Shown: piece by piece, positions 4,332 through 42,100 of the stretch | Layout: every line of letters starts with the position of its first letter | Position numbering within the stretch: position 1 is the stretch's first letter | Source of the DNA: Halorubrum trapanicum | Lineage (GTDB): Archaea; Halobacteriota; Halobacteria; Halobacteriales; Haloferacaceae | Direction: 5' to 3' | DNA length: 64,000 nt | Assembly (NCBI RefSeq): GCF_002355655.1 | Contig: NZ_AP017569.1 | Location: 1,488,001 to 1,552,000, forward strand | The notes under the pieces: model-generated | Told to the model about the DNA's origin: nothing | The model's input: the letters and a program-made list of their open reading frames with translations, nothing else | Database searches by the model: none | Translations under genes and position numbers: made by a program

Positions 4332-5261
4332 TCAGTCCGCGTCGGGGAACGGCACCTCGATCAGGTCGCCGTCGTCGGGCAGGAGGCACTCTCCGTCGAA
4401 CTCCTCGCGGGCGTCGCGGCGGATCGGGGAGGCGTCCGCAGCGTAACGCGAAGAGATGTGAACGAGCGCGAGCCGCTTCGCGTCCGCGCGGTCGGCGATC
4501 GACCCCGCCTCGCGGCCGGTGGAGTGGGCCGTGTCGCGGGCGCGGTCGGCCATGTCGTCGGCGAAGGTGGCGTCGTGGATCAGCAGGTCGGCGCCCTCGG
4601 CCGCTTCCACCGTCGACTCTCGCGGGCGCGTGTCCGCGGTGTACGCCAGCTTGCGGCCCGGGCGCGGCGGGCCGACGACCTGCTCGGGCTCGACGACCGT
4701 GCCGTCCTCGGCCTCGACGGGCTCGCCCTCGTGGAGGCGGCCGTACTTCGGGCCGACGGGGACGCCGAGCGCCTCCGCCTTCGGGCGGTCGAACCGACCG
4801 GGGCGGTCGTCCTCCTCCAAGACGTACCCCTGCGACTTCGTCCGGTGTTCCGTCTCGAAGGCGCGCACCGCGTACTCGTCGGCCTCGTAGGCGACCTCGC
4901 CGGGGGCGACCGGCTCGATCCGGACCGGGAACGCCGGGTCGTGGCCGACCGCGTGGACGAGGTCGTGGAGGTGGCCGTCGGTCCCCGGCGGGCAGTGGAT
5001 CGTGAGCGGGTCGGTGCGGTCGTTGAACCCGAGCGTCTGGACGAGGCCGGGGATGCCGAGGACGTGGTCGCCGTGGAGGTGGGAGACGAACACGCGGTCG
5101 ACGGCGAACCCGGTGCCGGCGCGCATCATCTCGCGCTGGGTACCCTCGCCGCAGTCGAAGAGGAAGCGGTCGCCCTCGCGGTTGACGAAGACGGCGCTCG
5201 CCGCGCGCTCGACGGTCGGGACGGCGCCGCCCGTCCCGAGGAAGGTGACGCGAAGAGACAT
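4332..5261 (-). CDS. rnz: ribonuclease Z (tRNA 3' endonuclease)
   Basis: Protein of 309 aa of the metallo-beta-lactamase fold, cutting tRNA precursors after the discriminator base to make the mature 3' end. The zinc-binding HLHGDH motif is at residues 61-66, preceded by FLGTGGAVPT at the N-terminus and LFDCGEGTQRE. Further family motifs are DTRP, HDATF and HISSRY, which carry metal ligands and the His/Asp pair near the C-terminus. Length matches the short RNase Z form. The start at 5261 places the protein directly at the conserved N-terminus. The longer open frame upstream is not supported by the family. Confidence 0.96.
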   Translation of the reverse strand: MSLRVTFLGTGGAVPTVERAASAVFVNREGDRFLFDCGEGTQREMMRAGTGFAVDRVFVSHLHGDHVLGIPGLVQTLGFNDRTDPLTIHCPPGTDGHLHDLVHAVGHDPAFPVRIEPVAPGEVAYEADEYAVRAFETEHRTKSQGYVLEEDDRPGRFDRPKAEALGVPVGPKYGRLHEGEPVEAEDGTVVEPEQVVGPPRPGRKLAYTADTRPRESTVEAAEGADLLIHDATFADDMADRARDTAHSTGREAGSIADRADAKRLALVHISSRYAADASPIRRDAREEFDGECLLPDDGDLIEVPFPDAD

Positions 5262-5378
5262 GCCCGCTCGTCGGAGCGCCGTTTGTAAACCGGTGTCGAT
5301 GCGGGGGAGGGAACCGCCGGTTCGGCCTCGCGGGGAGTCGGCCGACACCCACATGAGTCCGGCCGCCCGAGCGGGGGC

Positions 5379-5657
5379 ATGCGAGAGCCGATCGCCGCCT
5401 TGGTCAAACAGGAGGGGTGGCGCGCGGAGGGCGCGGCCGCCCGCGTCCACTACGAGGGGGGTAACGACCGATACGCGGTGGAGTTCTACGCCGAGACGGC
5501 CCGCGTCCTCTACTGGGCGGTCCCGACCGACGACGAGGAGGGCGGAACGGCCGCGCCGGTCCCGCGCGACGGCGTTCCGGATCCGCTCCGGCGGCGCGTC
5601 CGGGAGGACCTCGACGAGGCCGGGATCGACACCGAGGTCGAACGGCGCGAACTCTGA
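5379..5657 (+). CDS. small conserved haloarchaeal protein, function unknown
   Basis: Protein of 92 aa, divergent from rnz. It begins MREPIAALVKQEGW and continues with an alternating pattern suggesting beta strands (RVHYEG, RYAVEFYAETARVLYWAV), then an acidic loop and a helix near the C-terminus (RRRVREDLDEAGID). The composition is typical of a folded halophilic cytosolic protein and codon use matches neighbours. I do not recognise a function. Confidence 0.65.
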   Translation: MREPIAALVKQEGWRAEGAAARVHYEGGNDRYAVEFYAETARVLYWAVPTDDEEGGTAAPVPRDGVPDPLRRRVREDLDEAGIDTEVERREL

Positions 5658-5900
5658 GTCGCGCGGTCGTCGGATCCGCGGCCGCCGGGCAGTCGACGGG
5701 TCCGAGGCCGCCGCACAGCCGCCGGGACCGACGCCGCCGCGCGCACCGATTCTACCCCGGCACGACCGGAGGCGTCCCCGCCGTCGACCGCACTCCGGAA
5801 GGCGAGATCACCCGATCGACCGCCCGTTAGCGGCGTTTTCTGCCGATGTATTTCGGTTCGAAGGAAACCTATTTGCCGTCTTACCTGATACGACTCTGTG

Positions 5901-7844
<1,944 letters not shown>

Positions 7845-26630: not shown

Positions 26631-26637
26631 AGAGAAT

Positions 26638-26894
26638 GCGGTGGCGCGCCTGCGAGCGGCCGCCATCGGCGGCCGCGAGCCAGCCCGCGAGGGAGTCAGT
26701 CGCCGGAGCGAAGCGGAGGCGACTGACGAGGTTGGGGAGGCGTGAGGTGCGGTCGCTGTGCGGTGCGGGTGGGACTCAAAGGGGCAGTCGCGAGGCGGCC
26801 GCAGGCGACGGAAGCACCGCAGCGAAGGAGCGCCAGCGACTGAGCGAGGAGCGCAGCGAGCGTGCGCCCGCCTCGCGACTGGGGCTTTGGCGGT
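26638..26894 (+). ncRNA. structured repeat element, copy C (putative noncoding RNA)
   Basis: Third copy, located between the convergent acn and rps7 genes. The apical hairpin is GCGGCCGCC/GGCGGCCGC; helix 2 is a 10-bp stem GTCAGTCGCC/GGCGACTGAC with GGAGCGAAGCGGA between the arms; helix 3 has arms CAGTCGCGAGGCGGCCGC and GCGCCCGCCTCGCGACTG with a single mismatch. The conserved blocks GAGGTTGGGGAGGCGTGAGG and GGGACTCAAAGGGG are present. Downstream are single, not tandem, TTTATAA boxes near 26925-26931 and 26953-26959. Confidence 0.6.
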
Positions 26895-37764: not shown

Positions 37765-37837
37765 GCCCGGATGGTGTAGTGGCCCATCATACGACCCTGT
37801 CACGGTCGTGACGCGGGTTCAAATCCCGCTCCGGGCG
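37765..37837 (+). tRNA. tRNA-Asp (GTC), copy 1
   Basis: A complete cloverleaf of 73 nt. Acceptor arms are GCCCGGA and TCCGGGC with discriminator G. The anticodon stem-loop CCCTGTCACGG has anticodon GTC, and the T arm is GCGGG-TTCAAAT-CCCGC. The CCA end is not encoded. A possible TATA (CCTTATTTG, 37726-37734) lies about 35 bp upstream. A short CCCC/GGGG hairpin separates it from copy 2. Confidence 0.96.
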
Positions 37838-37866
37838 TCCCCTCTTTCGGGGCGCTGTCGCTGTTT

Positions 37867-37939
37867 GCCCGGATGGTGTAGTGGCCCATCATACGACCCT
37901 GTCACGGTCGTGACGCGGGTTCAAATCCCGCTCCGGGCG
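37867..37939 (+). tRNA. tRNA-Asp (GTC), copy 2
   Basis: Identical in sequence to copy 1 and 102 bp downstream of it. There is no promoter-like box in the 29-bp spacer, so both are probably cut from one transcript. The 3' end is followed by an inverted repeat, an inverted copy of the T arm and a partial direct copy of the 3' end. Confidence 0.96.
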
Positions 37940-37944
37940 TTCCT

Positions 37945-38114
37945 GTCGACGCCGACTACGAGCGAGGAGCGCCAGCGACGAGCGAGTCCGGCGTCGACGA
38001 ACGCAGACTGAAGGGATTTGAACCAGGGAGTGGAGCGAGCGGTGCGAGGCGCGAGCGAAGTGAGCGCCTCGAAAAGCGAGCGGAAAGACTGAGGTACAAA
38101 TCCCGCTCCGGGCG
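37945..38114 (+). repeat. tRNA-Asp tail-derived repeat unit
   Basis: After tRNA-Asp copy 2 there is an imperfect inverted repeat (37945-37957 with 37985-37998), then an inverted copy of part of the tRNA T arm (GGGATTTGAACC, 38013-38024), a second GCGAGGCGC/GCGCCTCG hairpin (about 38044-38071), and an 18-base exact direct copy of the tRNA 3' end (38097-38114). Beyond it, about 38128-38166 repeats the stem-loop sequence found at 37952-37993. No integrase gene is nearby. Confidence 0.75.
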
Positions 38115-41506: not shown

Positions 41507-41579
41507 GTCCTGGTAGGGTAGTGGACTATCCTCTTGGCTTGCGGAGCCAGGGACCGGAGTTCAAATCTCCGTCAGGACG
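41507..41579 (+). tRNA. tRNA-Arg (GCG)
   Basis: A cloverleaf of 73 nt. Acceptor arms are GTCCTGG and TCAGGAC with one G-T pair and discriminator G. The anticodon loop TTGCGGA has anticodon GCG, reading CGC and CGT, and the T arm is CGGAG-TTCAAAT-CTCCG. CCA is not encoded. It is followed by tail-derived repeats. Confidence 0.93.
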
Positions 41580-41825
41580 TTTTCGGACACACAAAACGGC
41601 GAGCGTAGCGAGCCGTGCGTGTGTCCGAAAACTCCGCGGAGATTTGAGCAGGAAAGTCGCAGCGGCCGAGCGAAGCGAGGCCGACCGTCTTTCCGAGTTC
41701 AAATCTCCGTCAGGACGTTCACTTTGCGGCTGTCTCACTTCGTTCGACAGCCGCTGCGCTCACGTCCTGACGTGCCTCACGCTCGCTTCGCTCGCGTGAG
41801 ACTCCGTCAGGACGTTTTCGGACAC
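41580..41825 (+). repeat. tRNA-Arg tail-derived repeats
   Basis: Directly after tRNA-Arg, TTTTCGGACACAC (41580-41592) pairs with its inverse at 41619-41631, followed by an inverted copy of the T arm (CGGAGATTTGA, 41637-41647). A direct 23-base copy of the tRNA 3' end lies at 41695-41717. A second partial direct copy, 13 bases of the tRNA plus 11 bases of its original flank, lies at 41802-41825 and is identical to 41567-41590. The layout parallels the tRNA-Asp locus. Confidence 0.75.
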
Positions 41826-41840
41826 GGCAGTTGAACCTAT

Positions 41841-42100
41841 GCGGCGGCGTGTGCCTGCGAGCGGCCGCCATCGGCGGGCGCGAGGAGCACGCGCGAGGGA
41901 GTCGGTCGCCGAGCGGAGCGACGGCGACCGACGAGGCTGGGGAGGTGTGAGGCGCGGTGCTGTGCGGGGCGGGAATCGAAGGGGCAGTCGCGAGGGCGTC
42001 GCAGGCGACGAAAGCACCGCAACGAGGGAGCGAACGAAGTGAGCGACAGAGTGAGGAGCACAGCGAGCGTGCGACGCCCTCGCGACTGGGGCTTCGGTGG
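41841..42100 (+). ncRNA. structured repeat element, copy D (putative noncoding RNA)
   Basis: Fourth copy, starting about 15 bp after the tRNA-Arg repeats. Apical hairpin GCGGCCGCC/GGCGGGCGC; helix 2 is a 10-bp stem GTCGGTCGCC/GGCGACCGAC; helix 3 is an 18-bp perfect stem with arms 41985-42002 and 42071-42088. The central bases of helix 3 (GGCGTC/GACGCC) differ from copies A and E on both arms, so pairing is kept. No good TATA box precedes it and the downstream TTTATAA appears decayed. Confidence 0.6.

Follow-up and report, generated by a model that had tools for sequence, protein, structure and literature searches.

Why should a tRNA gene be followed by direct and inverted copies of its own 3' end? 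The question is raised by a tRNA-Arg(GCG) gene of Halorubrum trapanicum, located by ARAGORN and Rfam (RF00005) at 41507..41579 on the forward strand of the window. The window is the whole stretch of 64,000 nucleotides that was analysed, namely positions 1,488,001-1,552,000 of the 2.84-Mb main contig in a genome of 3.08 Mb in total.

Architecture of the tRNA-Arg array

Downstream of the gene there are two units, each closed by a copy of the tRNA's 3' tail (t1, 41557-41579, + strand). Unit A (138 bp, 41580..41717, +), which was delimited by its fold and by 22 aligned copies in the genus, consists of a flank hairpin, an inverted T-arm, a GC-rich loop module and a tail copy. The hairpin (h1, 41580..41631, +) is an exact inverted repeat: the flank TTTTCGGACACAC forms arm f at 41580-41592 and is mirrored in arm f' at 41619-41631, and the arms covary between species. 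It is followed by t' (41637..41649, - strand), an inverted T-arm copy with the sequence CGGAGATTTGAGC, which is identical at 12/13 positions to the reverse complement of the tRNA-Arg T-arm and is own-specific in the relatives as well. Then comes the loop2 module AGGAAAGTCGCAGC...GACCGTCTTTCC (41650..41694, +), with related modules near tRNA-Lys(ctt), Gly(ccc), Gly(gcc) and others. The direct tail copy t2 (41695..41717, +) closes the unit with 23 identical nucleotides, or 25 if the next TT is counted. Unit B (97 bp, 41718..41814, +; fold and 36 aligned genus copies) contains a hairpin at 41726-41754, an inverted acceptor copy at 41762-41772, a second hairpin at 41776-41800 and a 13-nt tail copy at 41802-41814. 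This last tail is followed by 11 nt of the original flank, TTTTCGGACAC, and t3 as a whole (41802..41825, +) matches the tRNA tail plus flank exactly over 24 nt. The mirrored flank, the inverted T-arm copy and the two direct tail copies had been described at just these positions by an earlier sequence-only reading of this DNA, and all of them are real. As single strands, both segments fold more strongly than their dinucleotide shuffles, with z of about -7.4 for unit A and -6.0 to -6.3 for unit B, and the start right after the tRNA is pyrimidine-rich. At a permissive threshold, Rfam recognised only the tRNA in the array, the rest being sub-threshold noise, and it holds no family for the units.

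The same two unit types, non-coding and about 60-190 bp long, recur at other tRNA genes. Type A has the flank with its mirror hairpin, t', the loop module and a tail from -21 to the last base; this tail starts at GGTTC, that is, from the last two bases of the T-stem 5' strand onward. Type B is built from two hairpins with an inverted copy of the acceptor strand between them, and ends with the tail from -14 or -12. On their left side the tail copies start at a rather constant point (-21 in A, between -14 and -12 in B), and the module boundaries lie in the T-loop core (T-core), whose consensus is GGTTCRAATCC, with an inverse copy within t'. The purine motif GCGAGCGAAGCGAGC, which could form tandem G.A pairs, is frequent in the stems, on the tRNA strand in A and on the opposite strand in B. 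The orientation of the purine-rich loops is mostly conserved in the same way. By sequence and fold, neither unit A nor unit B has terminal inverted repeats.

The tRNA-Asp locus had been described as having the same components in the same order, and this holds in part. The second of two tandem tRNA-Asp(GUC) genes (37867..37939, +; ARAGORN and Rfam) is followed by a cassette of the unit A type (37940..38114, +), with an inverted T-arm at 38013-38024 and a tail copy with 1 mismatch at 38093-38114. Unit B is absent there, so the likeness is that of one unit and not of the whole locus. Three further species of the genus share the tandem tRNA-Asp duplicates with their short spacer (37765-37939). The window also contains, at 41840-42100 and 26636-26880, a long interspersed repeat that is rich in GC. 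A 160-bp stretch of it has at least 39 further chromosomal copies, which are 79-91% identical, and is followed by an inverted repeat. A few of the copies are found no more than about 300 bp from a tRNA 3' end, and there is a T-arm-like stretch, GGAATCGAAGGGGCAGTCGCG, inside; the repeat is possibly related to the tail cassettes.

Occurrence, turnover and concerted evolution

How general are such arrays? With the Rfam model, 45 tRNA genes were located in this genome (the full list of 47 records includes two extra tRNA-like calls). For each gene its own 13-nt tail, with at most 1 mismatch, was searched in the next 400 nt downstream, with the tails of the other tRNAs as control. An own-tail copy was found downstream of 20/45 genes, compared with 3/2068 cross pairs. 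The corresponding numbers in a second species of the genus (G022) are 20/44 and 3/1810, and the set of unit-bearing genes differs widely between the two species. The best own-tail match scores 13-25 downstream for some 20 genes and at most 11 upstream, the duplicated Asp gene excepted. Given these upstream scores and the rarity of cross pairs, the downstream copies are not due to chance. This bears out the proposal of the sequence-only reading that one mechanism is repeated with each tRNA's own tail. It had allowed that the Arg and Asp loci would be a coincidence if all other tRNA genes lacked such structures; clearly, many of them carry one. As a small control, 26 tRNAs were taken from seven genomes that belong to the phylum but not to the haloarchaeal order; none had an own-tail copy (0/26). 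Farther off, at 500-5000 nt downstream, only tRNA-His(GTG) has an own-tail match, a 37-bp copy of its 3' end 2.95 kb away (L099; G000 C1:2595493-2598500). The interval contains an ORF with a universal-stress-protein domain and a fragment of an IS240-like DDE transposase. We regard this copy at +2950 as part of an ordinary inserted element, a candidate small integrated element, and keep it apart from the arrays.

The distribution among prokaryotes was surveyed with a pattern from the unit A loop, GATTYGAANCAGGGAACN{8,38}GTTCRAATC, in one genome each for 84,980 species. It matched in haloarchaea only, in many genera, with the named matches being mostly Halorubrum. In the 80 loci that were analysed there are 81 matches; 72 of these follow a tRNA on the same strand at a distance of 31-270 nt, with some 17 isoacceptors represented. 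Among the remaining nine, some begin with a tail fragment that has no tRNA body: L124 and L183 at GGTTC, L178 at TTCG and L189 at ATCCC. Such fragments are as expected if a larger element was inserted between the tRNA and the array. At L124 an integrase gene (PHROG integrase, E 1.2e-19) adjoins a tRNA-Val tail fragment and a cassette array without the tRNA body. The gene, at about 5096-6568, encodes a divergent tyrosine integrase with a clear PHROG match and only a weak Pfam score, giving no match at the default threshold. Another locus (L119) carries the loop that separates t' from t2 in exact inversion. In viral contigs the loop motif gave only chance matches in unrelated genes.

Are the arrays gained and lost as whole units? 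The genus sample comprised 52 species, and the tRNA-Arg(GCG) locus was compared in 49 of them. The region downstream is empty in 4 species and otherwise reads B, A-B, B-A, B-A-B, A-B-A-B, A-B-B or B-B-B. The 13-nt tail copies have 0 mismatches in nearly all cases, and the per-site diversity is 0.02-0.03 in the tail copies vs 0.16-0.20 in the rest of the units. An empty allele (G040), in which the tail is directly followed by TTTTCGGACACACCAAACGG, differs by exactly one unit from a filled allele (G051), which reads tail, B, tail and the same flank. Similarly, when the present species is compared with G022, Met, Pro(tgg), Tyr, Ser(tga), Leu(caa) and Ser(gga) are filled in one species while the corresponding unit is absent in the other. 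At these six loci the flank after the last tail of the filled allele matches the flank right after the tRNA in the other species, and the filled alleles have an extra tail copy of 13-23 nt. The unit at the Met locus in G022 has a flank hairpin unlike the local flank; therefore not every unit arose in place. The array at tRNA-Lys(ttt) in G043 (L239) consists of four identical units in tandem and then a different one; the identity of the four suggests a very recent amplification. The units of this tRNA stand in other orders in other species. A tRNA-Arg(ccg) locus in G046 (L247) has no unit, and a bare T-core, TTCAAATC, lies there about 16 nt downstream, followed by unrelated sequence.

Units are also reassorted between tRNA loci. 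Loop modules are common to tRNAs with unrelated tails while flank hairpins are not: the similarity of the loop exceeds that of the flank hairpin in 18/18 units here and in 19/21 in G022. This comparison is unbiased; an earlier one, on loci selected by the loop motif, was biased and has been set aside. Four species have tRNA-Lys arrays in which TTCGAATC and an Arg-like right half make up the tail ahead of unit B, and the tail after unit B has its own Lys right half. The inverted acceptor copy in this unit B matches the foreign, Arg-like half in most of the four species. The same chimeric pattern, with the tail of Arg(ccg), is found at tRNA-Arg(cct) here. Judged by sequence, the chimeric Lys tails are the pattern that an exchange at ATC|CC would leave; tails bracketing units are mostly identical, and the Lys chimera before unit B could also reflect a later exchange.

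The tail copies keep pace with their tRNA. Over 71 tRNA-associated matches, the right half of t2 agrees with its own tRNA at 10.85/12 positions and with other isoacceptors at 5.61. Within isoacceptors, t2 fits the tRNA of its own genome better than those of other species (1193 vs 1162.6 +/- 5.9; 0/5000 permutations, in a test that is somewhat inflated by species relatedness). The variable T-loop purine is concordant in tRNA, t2 and t' in 69/71 cases, a concordance that is not built in since the search pattern admitted every purine combination. For Leu(tag) both purine states, A and G, exist among species (loci L114-L188), and tRNA, t2 and t' switch together. These joint switches raise the question, do the pseudo-tails convert the tRNA gene itself?

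The stems change in a coordinated way too. In 22 A and 36 B units, two-arm changes outnumber one-sided mismatches, with 69 vs 37 in A and 94 vs 21 in B, where the counts are of sequences and not of independent events. There are several hairpin alleles in which three or four adjacent positions differ on each of the arms, and in G024 one B loop is inverted within arms of 7-9 bp. Such two-arm changes and the flipped loop fit fold-back copying or module replacement. The numbers of G.T and A.C mismatches in the stems are nearly equal (14/15 in A and 8/8 in B), with no strand bias. Because G.T equals A.C, the wobble tolerance expected of a selected RNA is seen on neither strand. The idea that RNase Z or RNase P processes the pseudo-tails likewise gained no support, as the stems have no G.U bias for either strand.

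Template switching as a proposed mechanism, and its alternatives

What mechanism could produce these arrays? Our preferred answer, to which we give about an even chance (roughly 0.5), is that they are tail-anchored, non-coding, palindromic DNA cassettes, with the T-loop core as the place of reassortment and with fold-back template switching or conversion keeping them homogeneous. Each cassette lies between two copies of the tRNA's own 3' tail, and the T-core would be the switch point for gain, loss and reassortment, acting within a locus and between tRNA genes. The nascent strand would copy the tail and the flank and fold back on the flank hairpin, giving f' and t'; it would then jump at the T-core to a loop module of the same or another tRNA locus, and would finally come back to its own tail, again at the T-core. 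Fold-back template switching, or conversion between neighbouring copies, would create the palindromes f/f' and t'/t2 and hold them in register. Direct and inverted tails that match their own tRNA, flank hairpins that are particular to each tRNA, loops common to several tRNAs, chimeric tails and flipped loops would all follow from such a model of fold-back and T-core jumps. We infer that template switching at replication drives the process, and that the arrays are not functional RNAs but neutral or selfish DNA.

A palindromic duplication by template switching had already been proposed by the sequence-only reading. This mechanism is plausible, and the palindromes, the two-arm changes and the flipped loop agree with it, but it is insufficient as a purely local event. 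A local triplication as the sole cause is ruled out by the loop modules common to different tRNAs, and exchange between loci at the T-core is also needed because of the shared loops, the variable order and number of units, and the chimeric tails. The mostly conserved strand orientation of the loops counts against unconstrained flipping.

The main rival, which we consider possible though rather unlikely, is that units A and B are mobile mini-cassettes which are non-autonomous, depend on a tyrosine recombinase for their movement and have the tRNA tail as attachment site. A circular cassette would insert by a crossover at the T-core, the old tail would be displaced to the far end, and cassettes would pile up as in an integron. 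This is favoured by the clean insertions between tail copies, by the ordered arrays that differ between species, and by the chimeric tails at Lys and Arg(cct), which match a crossover at ATC|CC. It is also favoured by L124, where an integrative element (PHROG integrase, E 1e-19) lies just upstream of the tRNA-Val-tail array and the tail fragment starts at the same GGTTC. The rather constant left edge and the boundaries in the T-core would be explained at least as well by a site-specific recombinase. A tyrosine recombinase acting at the T-core accounts equally well for insertion, order and chimeras, but not for the behaviour of t' and the stems. By itself, it leaves unexplained why t' tracks the tRNA, why the arms change jointly, and how a loop was flipped in a hairpin without a T-core. 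Moreover, there is no recombinase gene in or beside the arrays here: integrase-domain matches in the genome lie only at about 232, 288, 925 and 2293 kb, which is hundreds of kb off, and none falls inside the span of the window (1488-1552 kb). Recombinase and template switching may both be acting.

Could the units instead be scars, that is, remnants of larger tRNA-targeting elements deleted down to their attachment ends? It is true that tRNA tails are known archaeal attachment sites (PMC9897764; the Haloquadratum tRNA-His island, PMC3119063), and the 37-bp tail copy 2.95 kb downstream of tRNA-His is in line with this. However, the units are short and discrete and look alike from one tRNA or genus to another, the two element ends at L124 and L183 have no t'-loop2 beside the tail on the element side, and four identical tandem units are not scar-like, which makes this origin improbable.

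We also think it improbable that the units are a selected RNA element in the pre-tRNA trailer, working as a terminator, a processing decoy or a small RNA. The strong folds, the pyrimidine-rich start after the tRNA and the conserved tail copies would suit such a role, and by analogy with E. coli, where the tyrTV tail repeats yield the annotated small RNA RttR, it might be imagined here. Against it stand the stems, which have no bias for G.U over A.C, the set of unit-bearing tRNAs, which varies widely between two congeneric species, and the clean empty alleles; in addition, the purine-rich loops of B are on the antisense strand and no Rfam family is known for the units.

Finally, casposases are reported to insert at tRNA 3' ends with target duplication. 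Integration in the manner of a casposon or of CRISPR adaptation, with the tRNA 3' end as the duplicated target site, would suit polar arrays with the tail as repeat, but it is most improbable here, since t' is left unexplained and the chimeric tails, for which the simple target-site-duplication model was set aside, have a foreign right half before the Lys unit B where such a duplication would give two own tails.

A broader picture is put forward more tentatively. The tRNA genes would serve as anchors and templates, modules would be exchanged across loci via the T-core, and conversion would keep the tails equal to the resident tRNA, possibly with feedback on the tRNA itself. This would be a class-wide system that had previously escaped description.

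Comparison with known systems

Our search of the open-access literature found no description of haloarchaeal tRNA-tail arrays or of their hairpin sequences, and priority is unproven. About half of the tRNA genes in two species, and many across a major archaeal class, carry structured DNA that is apparently undescribed in that literature. In the arrays, recombination or template switching at a fixed core of 10 bp has been recorded by nature, and the tRNA gene provides an internal reference. They make testable both a haloarchaeal activity for tRNA-tail recombination and the conversion of tRNA genes by pseudo-tails. The cassettes can also mislead the annotation of tRNAs and attachment sites.

Then which known systems do the arrays resemble? 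Fragments of tRNA genes from integrative elements are well known, flanking long elements (PMC9897764). Like the arrays, tRNA-targeting elements repeat a partial tRNA tail at the far end, and the T-loop edge is the same in L124. The arrays, however, have no integrase and no genes, their units are about 60-190 bp long and have an inverted copy inside, and several units stand together. The small mobile repeats (SMRs) and PATEs of Haloquadratum belong to the same class of archaea and are short (80-110 bp), palindromic and transposase-free, but no use of tRNA tails is described for them (PMC3119063). SMRs carry terminal inverted repeats and leave their target unduplicated, and it is other mobile elements that they target and not tRNA genes (PMC3119063), whereas the arrays, unlike SMRs or MITEs, have no terminal inverted repeats and their filled alleles gain a tail copy of 13-23 nt. 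Integron cassette arrays are reported also in archaea (PMC9668308). Here the likeness lies in ordered, reshuffled units whose order and number vary between related genomes, and in an imperfect hairpin at the exchange site. The haloarchaeal arrays differ in having no integrase-domain match nearby, no cassette genes and a site identity that follows the tRNA, and the T-core, GTTCAAA/GTTCGAA, misses the attC core RYYYAAC/GTTRRRY by a C at the first R position.

Among known cases, the tail repeats of E. coli tyrTV (rttR) come closest. There, as in haloarchaea, tandem units downstream of the gene each end in an exact copy of the tRNA tail: behind tyrV, exact 19-nt copies stand at +160, +338 and +516, with their left edge in the T-loop (AATCC...). 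Unlike the arrays described here, the tyrTV repeats contain no good inverted tail copy, have a uniform spacing of 178 bp and come with an annotated small RNA and a small protein. To our knowledge, repeats of the tyrTV type are confined to this one locus. The haloarchaeal arrays, in contrast, are modular and palindromic, and in two species they are found at about half of all tRNA genes.
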